A stretch of 64,000 bases of DNA from contig OX638316.1 of the NCBI GenBank assembly GCA_951812525.1, forward strand, positions 4,998,468 to 5,062,467, written 5' to 3'. Below the pieces are notes generated by a model. That model did no database searches. It was not told where the DNA came from and saw only the letters and a program-made list of their open reading frames with translations. The first letter of the stretch is position 1. Each line of letters opens with the position of its first letter. Both the position numbers and the translations under genes were made by a program. Shown piece after piece: positions 8,575 to 55,383 of the stretch. The DNA is from an uncultured Poribacteria bacterium. GTDB taxonomy: Bacteria; Poribacteria; WGA-4E; WGA-3G.

Positions 8575-8659
8575 GGAAGTGCGGACACGCACAGACCATA
8601 GCGACGAAGTGGTATCACAGAAAGCACTACAATACATCAGCAGGAATGAGAATGGCTAA
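8573..8659 (+). pseudogene. Relic tail of a phosphopantoate--beta-alanine ligase gene
   Basis: A 28-codon frame running into TAA at 8657-8659 ends HSDEVVSQKALQYISRNENG. The intact ligase downstream ends YSNEAVLKKALEHISRCGNG. The stop/start overlap with the next gene (ATGGCTAA) is also identical. So the first cassette once held a full ligase gene, and a deletion fused its promoter region to the last ~20 codons. It may now serve as a translated leader for the membrane protein gene. Confidence 0.75.
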
Positions 8660-10577
8660 CGGAAACGGGAAACGGAACCTTGTTAAACCGCATATTCTAC
8701 TGATTGGGTTGGCTCTCGTTGCTTTTAATAGCTACTGGTGCCTGATGGGAACAGAGGTGTGGCATTCTACGCAGCTGACGATCGCCTCGCTGTTCTTTAA
8801 TGCGGTTTTTACGCTCCTCGTCTTCGTGCTTGTCAACCTACTGCTCCAGCGGTTCATACCACGTCTGGCGATGTCACAAGCAGACTTACAAACCATCTAT
8901 GTTATGGTGGTGATGGTATCAACGATCAGCGGACATACCATGATGGGTTACCTCATCCCCGTCCTCACGCATACATTCCAGTTCGCAACCCCCGAAAATG
9001 AGTGGTTATCGCTCTTTGGAAATAGTATCCCCAATTGGATTGCAATCAAAAGCCCGCGTATCTTAGATGGGTTCTACAACGGAGATTCAACCCTTTATAA
9101 TTCTGCCACGCTAAACGCATGGATATCGCCAGTGCTTGCTTGGTCGAGTTTCGTCATCGCGCTCTGGTTGACGTTATTAGCAGGAACGATCTTTCTCCGT
9201 AAACAGTGGACCGAAAACGAACGCCTGAACTATCCGATCGTCCAGCTTCCGTTGGCACTCACGAGTAACCCGAAACGCTTTTTTACTTCGCCGTGGATGT
9301 GGCTCGGATTTGCGATTGCGGGGAGTGCAGAATTGCTAAATGGATTGAGTTTCCTGTTTCCAGAGATTCCTTCCTTACCCATTAGAAACAGAATACTTGG
9401 ACAATTCAGCTCAAAACCGTGGAGTGCGATGGGACCGATCCGCATCTCCCTTTATCCATTTAGCATCGGGTTGATGTTCTTCACGCCACTGGACCTATCT
9501 TTCTCATGCTGGTTTTTCTGGTTCCTGACCCGTCTTCAGATGGTAGTGACAGATATGCTCGGCGCACGCGATATCTATAGGTTTGAACAACAGACGGGTG
9601 CTTGGATTGCATTCGGACTTATTCCATTGTGGATGGGACGACGGCACTATGGACGTATTATCCGTAAAGTTTTCGGGATCGCACAACGCCGTGGCGAACT
9701 ACCCCCTGACGATTCTGGTGAACCGATGCGTTACCGGACTGCTGCGGGACTGTTCACGGTAGGGTTAATGTTCCTTTTCTTCTTTTGTTTTCAAATGGGG
9801 ATGTCCTTCTGGGCGATTGGACTCTTTTTTCTTTTCTACTTTCCGATGGTTATCGGTATCACCCGTATTCGCGCCGAAATTGGTCCACCACTTCATCAAC
9901 TCATCCTTGTCGATCCAGGCAGGACGGCGGTATTGGCGTTAGGCACACGCCGACTCGGCACAGCCAATTTAACAGGATTTACGTTCCTCTACCCGTTTGT
10001 CCGATGCTTCCGGGCGCATCCAACACCGAGTGAGCTGGAGGCGTTCCGTCTGGCAGAGCGGAGCCGTATTGGGTATCGGCAACTTCTTATTGGGATGATT
10101 TTGGCGATTGTGTTCGGTATCCTGATAACATTTTGGGCGTACTTGCACGTCCTTCACGATATGGGTGCGGGAAGCAAAGCACGCGGCTGGATCGTCTATA
10201 TGGGGTGGGAGACGTTTAACCGCCTGCAAACCTGGCTTGTGAGTCCTCAGGAGACAAGCGTACCGGAACTTGGTGTCATCGGCAGCAGTTTTCTGTTCAC
10301 GATATTCTTGATGATTATGAAGATCCGATTTCTGTGGTGGCCGTTACATCCTGCCGGTTACGTGTTAGTCAGTGGTACTGGAATGGGGAGATTGTGGTTT
10401 ACAATCTTCTTGGGTTGGTTAGCAAAGGCAATCGTGTTAAAGATTGGCGGTGTGAAACTCTACCGACAAGCGATACCGTTCTTTTTGGGGCTAATCTTGG
10501 GAGATTATACACTCGGATGTATCTGGAGCCTCATCGGGTTGGTACTGGAGATACCAACCTATATTGTGTGGCATTAA
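8652..10577 (+). CDS. DUF6785/DUF6784 family polytopic membrane protein, copy 1
   Basis: 641 residues from the ATG at 8652; the paralogue's start supports this choice over 8646. The protein has about a dozen hydrophobic segments, the first at about 14-33, and a soluble loop with RKQWTENERLNYPIVQLPLA near residue 180-200. The family is known from Poribacteria, Planctomycetes and related groups, but its transported substrate is unknown. It is roughly 85-90 percent identical by eye to the copy at 11602-13527, and a more divergent homologue is at 32732-34660. The start overlaps the stop of the relic ligase frame by 8 bp, so translation is probably coupled. A transporter role is an inference. Confidence 0.85.
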   Translation: MANGNGKRNLVKPHILLIGLALVAFNSYWCLMGTEVWHSTQLTIASLFFNAVFTLLVFVLVNLLLQRFIPRLAMSQADLQTIYVMVVMVSTISGHTMMGYLIPVLTHTFQFATPENEWLSLFGNSIPNWIAIKSPRILDGFYNGDSTLYNSATLNAWISPVLAWSSFVIALWLTLLAGTIFLRKQWTENERLNYPIVQLPLALTSNPKRFFTSPWMWLGFAIAGSAELLNGLSFLFPEIPSLPIRNRILGQFSSKPWSAMGPIRISLYPFSIGLMFFTPLDLSFSCWFFWFLTRLQMVVTDMLGARDIYRFEQQTGAWIAFGLIPLWMGRRHYGRIIRKVFGIAQRRGELPPDDSGEPMRYRTAAGLFTVGLMFLFFFCFQMGMSFWAIGLFFLFYFPMVIGITRIRAEIGPPLHQLILVDPGRTAVLALGTRRLGTANLTGFTFLYPFVRCFRAHPTPSELEAFRLAERSRIGYRQLLIGMILAIVFGILITFWAYLHVLHDMGAGSKARGWIVYMGWETFNRLQTWLVSPQETSVPELGVIGSSFLFTIFLMIMKIRFLWWPLHPAGYVLVSGTGMGRLWFTIFLGWLAKAIVLKIGGVKLYRQAIPFFLGLILGDYTLGCIWSLIGLVLEIPTYIVWH

Positions 10578-10593
10578 TGAGACACATCACCAC

Positions 10594-10622
10594 TTGAAAA
10601 CTTCCTTAAAACACAGTATAAT
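10594..10622 (+). promoter_or_regulatory. Promoter 1 of the second cassette
   Basis: TTGAAA at 10594-10599, 17-bp spacer, TATAAT at 10617-10622, about 250 bp upstream of the ligase gene. It is embedded in a roughly 50-bp stretch that is repeated at 10765-10820. Confidence 0.6.
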
Positions 10623-10777
10623 AGACAGAAAATGTAAGTCCAACCCGGTAGGCACGGTTTTGCGGCGTACTCGACCAAATGCGAGGTGCATTCCTAACCG
10701 TGCCGGAAACGAGAAAAAAGGTGTCAAACTCCATATATTCTTAAAACTAAATGCCCCTAAATGAGGCACATCACCTC

Positions 10778-10806
10778 TTGCAAACATACACAAAGCACGA
10801 TATAAT
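10778..10806 (+). promoter_or_regulatory. Promoter 2 of the second cassette
   Basis: TTGCAA at 10778-10783, 17-bp spacer, TATAAT at 10801-10806, about 70 bp upstream of the ligase start. The preceding GAGGCACATCACC matches GAGACACATCACC before promoter 1, showing duplication of the promoter segment. Confidence 0.65.
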
Positions 10807-10816
10807 AAAGGCAAAA

Positions 10817-10856
10817 TGTAAGCTAAGACAAATTGTGCTTTTATAGCACAATTTTG
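10817..10856. repeat. TGTAAGCTAAGACAAATT hairpin repeat in the ligase leader
   Basis: Contains a perfect 10-bp stem: AAATTGTGCT at 10830-10839 and AGCACAATTT at 10845-10854, loop TTTAT. The same repeat family occurs at 32575, 54994 and 63212, so it is a dispersed element even though it could fold in this mRNA leader. Confidence 0.6.
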
Positions 10857-10874
10857 TGCTGAGGTGCTATTTAA

Positions 10875-11609
10875 TTGACTGACGTTCCGAAAACACACCC
10901 CCGATACCTTTCATTGACGTTACGAGATACCATCGTTGCAGGTGTGGAGCAAGGGATTACTTCTGTCCACGGGCTTATCGCGCACGGGCGTGGTGAGGCT
11001 TTTGACTATCTCATAGGGGAGGCGACTCAACCGTTCGCGATCGAAGCGATCCACGCTGCTGCTGCGATGCTCCGTTTGGCAGAACACCCTGTTATTTCGG
11101 TCAACGGGAATGTGGCAGCATTGGCACCGGATGCGCTCATTGAATTGGGACAGGTGCTCAGCGCACCGTTAGAGGTGAATATCTTTCACACGGAAACAGG
11201 ACGGGAACAGCGAATTCAGGAACACCTCTTACATCACGGGGCACCGGATGTTCTCATGCCTACAACCGAAGCGCAACTCTCCTATATTGACTCCAATCGG
11301 AAGTTTGTACATCCAGAAGGAATTTTTAAGGCGGATGTCGTCTTCGTGCCGCTTGAGGACGGCGACCGATGCGAAGCACTCCGAAAGATGGGCAAAGAAG
11401 TTGTGACGGTCGATCTGAACCCGTTGTCGCGGACAGCACAGCAGGCGAGTATCACAATCGTAGATAACGTTGTGCGAGCACTACCGTTGTTGTGTGAAGA
11501 GATTCGGGAATTTAACAATCTCACAGCAGAGAACACTGTGACAAGATATAGTAACGAAGCGGTGTTAAAGAAAGCGTTAGAGCACATCAGTAGGTGCGGG
11601 AATGGCTAA
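10875..11609 (+). CDS. Archaeal-type 4-phosphopantoate--beta-alanine ligase
   Basis: 244 residues. In archaea this enzyme (EC 6.3.2.36, PF02006) joins 4-phosphopantoate and beta-alanine with ATP, replacing bacterial PanC in coenzyme A synthesis together with pantoate kinase. Family blocks are present in order: HGRGEAFDYL (37-46), SVNGNVAAL (75-83), PLEDGDR (159-165), DLNPLSRTAQ (180-189) and TIVDNVVRA (194-202). The start is a TTG at 10875 with GAGGTG 8 bp upstream. The last ~25 residues extend beyond the core and overlap the membrane-protein start. Two promoters precede it. No pantoate kinase, PanB or PanC is in the window, so pathway completeness cannot be judged. A bacterial copy suggests ancient transfer. 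Confidence 0.9.
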   Translation: MTDVPKTHPRYLSLTLRDTIVAGVEQGITSVHGLIAHGRGEAFDYLIGEATQPFAIEAIHAAAAMLRLAEHPVISVNGNVAALAPDALIELGQVLSAPLEVNIFHTETGREQRIQEHLLHHGAPDVLMPTTEAQLSYIDSNRKFVHPEGIFKADVVFVPLEDGDRCEALRKMGKEVVTVDLNPLSRTAQQASITIVDNVVRALPLLCEEIREFNNLTAENTVTRYSNEAVLKKALEHISRCGNG

Positions 11610-13527
11610 TAGAAATGGCAAACAGAATCTCGTCAAACCGCATATCCTACTGATTGGGTTGGTCCTCGTTGCTTTCAATAGTTACTGGTGCCTCATGGGG
11701 ACGGAGGTGTGGCACTCTACGCAGCTGACGATCGCATCTCTGTTCTTCAACGCCGTTTTTACCCTCCTTATCTTCGTCCTTGTCAACCTACTGTTCCAAA
11801 GATTTCTACCGCGTCTGGCGATGTCGCAAGCAGATTTGCAAACCATCTACGTGATGGTTGTGATGCTAACGACCATCAGCGGACACACGATGATGGGCTA
11901 CCTTATCCCCGTCCTCGCGCACACCTTTCAGTTTGCCTCTCCCGAAAATGAATGGATACCGCTATTTGGGCATCACATCCCGACTTGGATCGCTGTTAAA
12001 AGCCCGCGTATTTTGGACGGGTTCTACAACGGAGATTCTACACTCTATACCCCCGCTAATTTAGACGCATGGATACCGCCTGCACTGGCTTGGTCGAGTT
12101 TTGTGATTGCACTCTGGCTGACTTTACTGGCAGTAACGGTCTTTCTTCGGAAGCAGTGGACGGAAAACGAACGTCTGAACTATCCGATCGTCCAACTCCC
12201 GTTGGCGTTGACAAGCAACCCAAAACGCTTTTTCACCTCGCCGTGGATGTGGCTCGGATTCGCACTCGCAGGGAGTGCTGAATTGTTGAACGGTTTGAAC
12301 TACCTGTTTCCCGATATACCCGCGCTACCGATCAAAGGGAAAACCATCGGACAATTCAGTTCAAAGCCGTGGAGCGCGATGGGACCGATCCGTATCTCTT
12401 TCTATCCGTTTAGCATTGGGTTGATGTTCTTTACGCCGCTGGATCTCTCGTTTTCGTGTTGGTTCTTCTGGCTAATTAGTCGTATTCAATTGATTGTAAC
12501 AGATGCCCTTGGAGCACGGAATATCTATCATCTCGAACAGCAGACAGGGGCGTGGATCGCGTTCGGGTGTATTCCGTTGTGGATAGGTCGGCGACATTAT
12601 GGACGCATTCTTCGGAAGGTTTTCGGGATCGCACAACGTCGCGGTGAAATCGCACCTGACGATTCTGCGGAACCGATGCGCTATCGTACAGCGGCAGGTC
12701 TGTTCATTGTGGGGATGTTGTTTCTCTTCTTTTTCTGTCATCAGATGGGGATGACCTTCTGGGCGATTGGACTCTTTTTCCTATTCTACTTCCCGCTGGT
12801 TATCGGTATCACCCGTATCCGCGCTGAAATTGGACCGCCGTTGCACCAACTCATCTTCGTTGATCCGGGACGAACGATGGTTCTTGCATTAGGCACGCGC
12901 CGACTCGGTGCTGCGAATCTGACGGGGCTAACGTTTCTCTACCCATTTGTCCGCTGTTTTCGAGCGCATCCGACACCAAGTGAATTAGAGGCATTCCGCT
13001 TGGCGGAGCGGAGTCGTATCGGGTATCGGCAACTGCTCATTGGGATGATTTTGGCGATTGTGTTCGGAATTTTGATAACGTTTTGGGCATATCTGCACGT
13101 CCTCTACGATATGGGTGCGGGAAGCAAAGCACGCGGCTGGATTGTCTATATGGGGTGGGAGACGTTTAACCGCCTGCAAACCTGGCTTGTGAGTCCACGC
13201 GAGACGAGTGTCCCTGAACTGAGTGTTATCGGTAGCAGTTTCCTGTTTACGATATTTCTGATGATTATGAAAATCCGATTTCTGTGGTGGCCCCTGCATC
13301 CAGGGGGTTATGTGCTTGTGAGCGGAACAGGGATGGGTGGCTTGTGGTTTCCAATTTTCCTCAGTTGGTTAGCGAAGGCGACTGTGTTGAAACTTGGGGG
13401 TGTGAAACTCTATCGACAAGCGGTGCCTTTCTTTTTAGGGTTGATCTTGGGGGATTATACGCTTGGGTGTGTGTGGAGCTTGATCGGATTGGTGTTGGAG
13501 ATGCCGACCTATATTGTTTGGCATTAG
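11602..13527 (+). CDS. DUF6785/DUF6784 family polytopic membrane protein, copy 2
   Basis: 641 residues, near-identical in layout to the protein at 8652-10577. It starts at an ATG that overlaps the ligase stop (ATGGCTAA), so the two are translationally coupled. Hydrophobic segments run along the length, with RKQWTENERLNYPIVQLPLA preserved and a conserved ITRIRAEIGPPLHQLI stretch around residue 400. Differences from copy 1 are scattered substitutions with no frameshift, so both copies seem to be under selection. Coupling to a coenzyme A precursor ligase raises the possibility of pantothenate or beta-alanine related transport, but nothing in the sequence proves it. Confidence 0.85.
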   Translation: MANRNGKQNLVKPHILLIGLVLVAFNSYWCLMGTEVWHSTQLTIASLFFNAVFTLLIFVLVNLLFQRFLPRLAMSQADLQTIYVMVVMLTTISGHTMMGYLIPVLAHTFQFASPENEWIPLFGHHIPTWIAVKSPRILDGFYNGDSTLYTPANLDAWIPPALAWSSFVIALWLTLLAVTVFLRKQWTENERLNYPIVQLPLALTSNPKRFFTSPWMWLGFALAGSAELLNGLNYLFPDIPALPIKGKTIGQFSSKPWSAMGPIRISFYPFSIGLMFFTPLDLSFSCWFFWLISRIQLIVTDALGARNIYHLEQQTGAWIAFGCIPLWIGRRHYGRILRKVFGIAQRRGEIAPDDSAEPMRYRTAAGLFIVGMLFLFFFCHQMGMTFWAIGLFFLFYFPLVIGITRIRAEIGPPLHQLIFVDPGRTMVLALGTRRLGAANLTGLTFLYPFVRCFRAHPTPSELEAFRLAERSRIGYRQLLIGMILAIVFGILITFWAYLHVLYDMGAGSKARGWIVYMGWETFNRLQTWLVSPRETSVPELSVIGSSFLFTIFLMIMKIRFLWWPLHPGGYVLVSGTGMGGLWFPIFLSWLAKATVLKLGGVKLYRQAVPFFLGLILGDYTLGCVWSLIGLVLEMPTYIVWH

Positions 13528-55132: not shown

Positions 55133-55206
55133 TGGGCGGTACAGGACTTGAACCTGTGACCTCTTGCATGTCAAGCAAACGCTCTAGCCACCTGAGCTAA
55201 CCGCCC
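55133..55206 (-). tRNA. tRNA-Val (GAC)
   Basis: Cloverleaf on the minus strand: acceptor GGGCGGT/ACCGCCC, D-arm GCTC...GAGC, anticodon stem TTTGC/GCAAG around TTGACAT (anticodon GAC), T-arm ACAGG-TTCAAGT-CCTGT. The discriminator is A and CCA is not encoded. Confidence 0.95.
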
Positions 55207-55224
55207 ATTTATCGAGAGAGATGA

Positions 55225-55299
55225 TGGAGGTGGCGGTCGGAATCGAACCGACGAATAAGAGTTTTGCAGACTCTGGCCTTACCACTTGGCTACGCCACC
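55225..55299 (-). tRNA. tRNA-Cys (GCA)
   Basis: Minus-strand cloverleaf with acceptor GGTGGCG/CGCCACC, anticodon loop CTGCAAA (GCA), T-arm GTCGG-TTCGATT-CCGAC, discriminator T and encoded CCA at the 3' end. Confidence 0.95.
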
Positions 55300-55308
55300 G
55301 GAAGAAGA

Positions 55309-55383
55309 TGGAGCGGGAGACGAGATTTGAACTCGCGACCTCCACCTTGGCAAGGTGGAGCTCTACCACTGAGCTACTCCCGC
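55309..55383 (-). tRNA. tRNA-Gly (GCC)
   Basis: Minus-strand cloverleaf with acceptor GCGGGAG/CTCCCGC, D-arm GCTC...GAGC, anticodon stem CCACC/GGTGG around TTGCCAA (GCC), T-arm GCGAG-TTCAAAT-CTCGT, encoded CCA. Confidence 0.95.

Follow-up and report, generated by a model that had tools for sequence, protein, structure and literature searches.

A likely replacement of PanC and PanK by an archaeal-type pantoate kinase and phosphopantoate ligase in a lineage of Poribacteria, with a probable OPT-like DUF6785 gene at the ligase locus

Introduction

Two described systems come closest to the locus reported here. In the archaeal branch of coenzyme A (CoA) synthesis, as described for Thermococcus kodakarensis, pantoate is phosphorylated by a pantoate kinase (PoK) before it is condensed with beta-alanine by a 4-phosphopantoate--beta-alanine ligase (PPS), and both enzymes are called 'unique to the archaea' (Shimosaka et al. 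2019, PMC6650551). The bacterial route uses PanC and a pantothenate kinase (PanK) such as the type III enzyme CoaX. According to the same source, both routes start from pantoate and beta-alanine and end at 4'-phosphopantothenate (PMC6650551).

The stretch of DNA analysed here, referred to as the window, comprises the final 64 kb of a single 5,062,467-base contig from an uncultured member of the Poribacteria, and it carries a PPS gene of the archaeal family that overlaps a gene for a DUF6785 membrane protein. Poribacteria are known from marine sponges. The reading that we favour, with a probability of roughly 0.84, is that PoK and PPS replace PanC and PanK in one poribacterial lineage, and that the DUF6785 protein is OPT-like, is carried on the PPS transcript and has no direct role in CoA synthesis. 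The two enzyme families are the same as those of the archaeal branch, and the step order given for T. kodakarensis (PMC6650551) would hold for Poribacteria as well. PPS and PoK genes adjoin in two poribacterial families, a further likeness to the archaeal branch; unlike that branch, the host is bacterial, and in the family of the window PoK and PPS lie apart. The PanC and CoaX route is present in sister families of the same phylum.

The annotation of the single gene is not new. NCBI automatic naming already covers several poribacterial PPS proteins, either as phosphopantothenate/pantothenate synthetase or as 4-phosphopantoate--beta-alanine ligase. A PoK-PPS route in bacteria was not found reported in the literature on PPS, pantoate kinase and Poribacteria, a search that covered subscription titles little and leaves absence unproven. 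Likewise, no publication on an exchange of PanC and CoaX for PoK and PPS was found when literature on phosphopantoate transfer and on Latescibacteria was included.

The PPS gene and its neighbours

Judged by its sequence, the ORF is a full-length, complete member of the archaeal PPS family, with a predicted ligase activity. In Pfam profile searches it matches PF02006 at 225.2 bits (cut-off 26.4), and it passes the NCBIfam equivalog model NF041123, '4-phosphopantoate--beta-alanine ligase', at 303.1 bits (cut-off 300). Residues 1-238 of 244 align with two PPS enzymes of known structure, 3wdk (E 8.9e-67) and 4mb0 (E 3.6e-65). A first-pass annotation of the window had recognised an archaeal-type ligase in a bacterial context from five motifs of the archaeal CoA-pathway ligase. 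All five are present in the translation, family membership holds at the PF02006 score, and the nearest named homologues belong to Candidatus Poribacteria. The genome of the window (hereafter the own genome, G000) has one PPS copy.

Table 1. Coordinates of features in the window, in the own genome and in other genomes and loci discussed in the text
Feature	Sequence	Position	Strand	Details
Upstream DUF6785+DUF6784 paralogue	Window	8646..10577	+	643 aa
Intergenic stretch 5' of PPS	Window	10578..10874	+	No Rfam family at gathering threshold
PPS, 4-phosphopantoate--beta-alanine ligase (archaeal family)	Window	10875..11609	+	244 aa, TTG start
PPS/DUF6785 overlap	Window	11602..11609	+	8 nt; ATG at 11602; PPS stop TAA 11607-11609
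DUF6785+DUF6784 polytopic membrane protein	Window	11602..13527	+	641 aa; PF20581 537 bits, PF20580 114 bits
Three tRNA genes in a row	Window	55133-55383	-	Rfam
CoaBC gene	Own genome	832613-833161
PoK homologue	Own genome, C1	1581928-1582767		411 bits to PoK profile A1
PanB gene	Own genome	3122377-3123129
PanB, PanC and PanD in a row	G059, C499	11397-13390
Apparent single CoaBC-PoK ORF	L055	5912-7912		666 aa
PPS directly before CoaX	L063	6047-7557

A riboswitch ahead of PPS was considered and rejected; at the gathering threshold the only Rfam matches in the window are three tRNAs.

A second DUF6785 gene, whose product is 88.6% identical to the downstream copy, lies just 5' of PPS, and the local order is therefore DUF6785-PPS-DUF6785, with tandem paralogues on both sides of the ligase gene. 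The first-pass annotation had omitted this upstream copy. Many of the loci L002-L028 also have a DUF6785 copy 5' of PPS.

Among the 46 comparable Poribacteria loci (L002-L047), 42 have a DUF6785 gene directly 3' of PPS. The overlap of the PPS stop with the start of the membrane protein gene, noted at first pass, is confirmed in the sequence. A candidate DUF6785 start overlaps the PPS end in 41 of the 42 loci with the pair (41 of 46 overall), and because candidate starts recur there so regularly the overlap is above chance. A run of ORFs 3' of the pair also recurs in many loci (L002, L003, L008 and others; clusters c4, c5 and c6). One ORF of this run has DNA-methyltransferase-like motifs by eye, and the run is possibly a restriction island.

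CoA-route genes in the own genome

A PoK homologue lies on the same contig as PPS, 3.4 Mb away, between a sulfatase gene and an unassigned ORF. It has a GHMP kinase domain (PF00288, 56.7 bits), and its best NCBIfam model is the pantoate kinase model NF040725, at 160.4 bits and below the cut-off of 380; the best model outside the pantoate kinases is a mevalonate kinase at 42 bits. By these scores the protein likely works like a pantoate kinase, and it is not filed as NF040725. Genes for PanB and CoaBC were found as well (Table 1).

Profile searches gave no match in the own genome for PanC, CoaX or type I PanK. In 14 control genomes the same searches matched PanC in 9, CoaX in 7 and type I PanK in 10 (4 over the cut-off). 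There was also no match in the own genome for the ApbA_C domain of ketopantoate reductase, and none for PanD either there or in 66 of the 67 phylum genomes with PPS and/or PoK. The first-pass annotation had named pantoate kinase, PanB, PanC and PanK as the genes to look for, and the searches recovered the first two and neither PanC nor a type I or III PanK. Its concern that the gene pair might be unique to a genome with a complete PanC/PanK route is not borne out: the pair recurs in other loci, and the own genome gave no match for PanC, CoaX or type I PanK.

Distribution in the phylum

The searches for PPS, PoK, PanC and CoaX covered the whole phylum set of 84 genomes. PoK was counted only above 300 bits; the weaker matches are short, score 19-29 bits and resemble other GHMP kinases. 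PPS is present in 63 genomes and PoK in 66, with 67 having at least one of the two and 62 having both. Unlike genomes with the PanC and CoaX route, these 67 have no CoaX (0/67), and PanC in one case only (1/67, G059). The other 17 genomes have neither PPS nor PoK; PanC is found in 13 of them and CoaX in 13 (either in 14, both in 12). The three genomes with none of the four genes (G005, G006 and G010) are 61-79% complete.

The carriers of PoK and PPS belong to family f1, which is that of the window, to f2, and to genera g6 and g8 of f3. Neither gene occurs in family f4 or in genera g5 and g7 of f3, which places the exchange within one order. One member of the pair is missing in five of the 67 genomes: PPS in G027, G058, G060 and G077, and PoK in G030. 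Completeness is below 90% in G027, G060 and G077 and not below 90% in G030 and G058. PanB is found in 76 of the 84 genomes; PanD is found in 7 of 84 and is scarce beyond the PPS lineage too, which leaves the supply of beta-alanine without an assigned gene in most of the phylum. In G059, PanB, PanC and PanD stand in a row on one contig. This genome otherwise has the PPS route, with its other PanB on a different contig, and it is listed at 6% contamination; the contig with the row is probably foreign.

Because the distributions are nearly exclusive, it is likely that PanC and CoaX were swapped for PoK and PPS in one lineage. This half of the favoured reading is strong, with the enzyme activities predicted from sequence.

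Gene order and phylogeny

In all nine f2 and f3 genomes with both genes, PoK is directly 5' of PPS. Among the 53 f1 genomes with both, the genes are on different contigs in 46 and on the same contig but at least 0.2 Mb apart in 7, and PPS usually sits 5' of DUF6785. The order PoK-PPS is also seen in the poribacterial loci L048-L054, in L056 (Latescibacterota) and in several DPANN archaea, in whose loci CoaBC often precedes the two genes. In two of these DPANN loci, L055 and L058, CoaBC and PoK appear to form one ORF (666 aa in L055; 675 aa, cluster c9, in L058) directly before PPS, possibly encoding a fusion protein.

The PPS tree has 64 rows, namely 55 of 80 loci, the window and 8 further proteins; the archaeal rows are those nearest the query, and the sample is biased accordingly. 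The 22 f1-type rows in the sample group together in a single clade (100/99), and L048-L054 fall outside it; on this ground the adjacent PoK-PPS order is taken to be the earlier arrangement, and the separated one, with PPS next to DUF6785, to have arisen in f1. Poribacteria, Latescibacterota and DPANN, together with L063 and L076, form a clade of 49 rows (100/97), with other archaea and Chloroflexota outside. The comparison with archaeal sequences called for at first pass groups the poribacterial PPS with DPANN. In the PoK tree (22 rows), Poribacteria and Latescibacterota form a clade (100/100), as they do when DPANN is added (100/100). The concatenated tree (23 rows) joins the bacteria, Chloroflexota included, at 97/99, and bacteria with DPANN at 100/100. 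A donor inside DPANN was considered and is not claimed. DPANN as one clade is not rejected (p-AU 0.406), and for that reason we claim only that, in this query-biased sample, the nearest archaeal relatives of poribacterial PoK and PPS are DPANN.

Beyond Poribacteria, one or both genes are represented in Latescibacterota-titled and Chloroflexota-titled records, by a protein named Gemmatimonadota and in two oddly titled bacterial records. Of the six non-poribacterial genomes with PPS loci that were searched for PoK, four have it (Latescibacterota, two of three Chloroflexota and a record titled Akkermansia); no PoK was found in the third Chloroflexota genome or in the record titled Klebsiella. A record titled Nanoarchaeota (L055) has both genes. 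In the record titled Akkermansia muciniphila MAG (L076, genome G089), the PPS is 66% identical over residues 2-212 and the PoK match reaches 260 bits; this PPS groups with a Nanoarchaeota PPS (99/94), which is on a long branch. In the record titled Klebsiella pneumoniae MAG (L063, genome G085), which is probably mislabelled, PPS lies directly before, and apparently overlaps, a type III pantothenate kinase gene (PF03309, 237.6 bits).

Proposed route and alternatives for PPS

In the proposed route, PanB would form ketopantoate, and a reductase, to which no gene is assigned, would convert it to pantoate. The predicted PoK would then phosphorylate pantoate to 4-phosphopantoate, and PPS would join this with beta-alanine to give 4'-phosphopantothenate, bypassing PanC and PanK. 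CoaBC would lead onward from there to CoA. The route would neither yield nor consume free pantothenate (vitamin B5). It appears likely that PoK and PPS were acquired side by side, in a unit akin to that of DPANN, that in the f1 ancestor this unit was split and PPS placed before a DUF6785 gene, and that DUF6785 has since been carried on the PPS transcript.

That the substrate of PPS is 4-phosphopantoate rather than pantoate is suggested by the presence of PoK and by the adjacency of the two genes elsewhere. The alternative is that PPS is a pantothenate synthetase acting on unphosphorylated pantoate, in company with a pantothenate kinase of an unfamiliar kind. The name of the NCBIfam model NF010324, 'phosphopantothenate/pantothenate synthetase', spans both reactions, and the PPS of L063, which stands directly 5' of CoaX in a genome where PoK was not found, may act in this way. 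In Poribacteria, however, 66 of the 67 genomes of the lineage have PoK and not one has CoaX, and the PoK-PPS adjacency in f2 and f3, in Latescibacterota and in DPANN fits a phosphopantoate substrate; for the lineage as a whole this alternative is very unlikely. Still less credible is that the contigs with PPS come from archaea and contaminate the bacterial assemblies. Sponge samples do hold archaea, but the gene of the window lies within a single multi-megabase contig, PPS with the same neighbour recurs in the multi-megabase Poribacteria-titled records L002, L009, L015, L022, L034, L045 and L046, and its occurrence across the phylum is exclusive with CoaX. Contamination is accordingly rejected.

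The DUF6785 protein

The predicted fold of the DUF6785 protein matches the OPT transporter fold over most of its length. The match is to barley Yellow stripe 1 (PDB 7wsr and 7wst), with which sequence identity is 10%; a Pfam search at E up to 1 matched no OPT family, and a sequence-profile search at E up to 10 matched no PDB chain. The protein is likely an OPT-like transporter, with transport predicted from the modelled fold, and an OPT-type fold carries no information on CoA. At least 14 matches to the family occur in the own genome, and all 84 genomes of the phylum have matches; a predicted OPT-like transporter has thereby expanded. A literature search for DUF6785, or for DUF6784 with oligopeptide transporter, found no publication.

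The first-pass annotation had proposed a functional link to CoA, in which DUF6785 is co-translated with PPS as a partner of the pathway and might, for instance, import a CoA precursor. Retention of the overlap in 41 of 46 f1-type loci, where the outer neighbours vary, is the best argument against a protein with no CoA role and is more than would be expected of a useless link; steady expression of DUF6785 from a housekeeping promoter is one use that would fit it. A transporter fold and the missing PanD and ApbA_C ketopantoate reductase make precursor import conceivable, and the three f1 genomes without PPS (G027, G058 and G060) are also without the linked DUF6785, which fits a missing contig and also joint loss. 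Against the link, relatives of 72-74% identity occur in the PanC genomes G024-G026 and in G015, which has CoaX. All four are without PPS, and the survey of neighbours proposed at first pass found no recognised CoA-pathway gene beside these relatives. The nine genomes with adjacent PoK and PPS have only distant matches (best E values between 1e-160 and 1e-176; identity 45-46% for G014, the one of the nine that is listed), and in the window's own family G031, G034 and G038, at 95-96% completeness, have PPS but lack the DUF6785 orthologue. The many family members in the own genome also speak against a dedicated partner. As a leading reading, DUF6785 as a CoA gene is rejected, with relatives present in PanC and CoaX genomes and only distant matches in the genomes with adjacent PoK-PPS; we consider it improbable. 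A narrower form, slightly less probable again, is that the whole lineage lives on the archaeal branch, and so neither makes nor is able to use vitamin B5, and that DUF6785 imports beta-alanine or beta-alanyl peptides in place of the missing PanD. For the absence of a direct CoA role, which we favour, the case is made by negative evidence and one match of a predicted fold.

Implications

The fold match offers a testable class for the unnamed DUF6785/DUF6784 family.

A bacterial phylum with PoK and/or PPS in 67 of 84 genomes stands against the description of these enzymes as 'unique to the archaea' (PMC6650551). It also provides a clean case in which an essential two-step route appears to have been exchanged inside one phylum, with the old route kept by sister families. 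A pathway tool that relies on PanC and PanK would class these bacteria as auxotrophic for vitamin B5, and one that counts on B5 as an intermediate would err as well, because the predicted route has no free pantothenate. Sponge symbionts, for which B5 auxotrophy is scored in a sponge microbiome study (PMC10947273), are a setting where the PoK-PPS route could matter.
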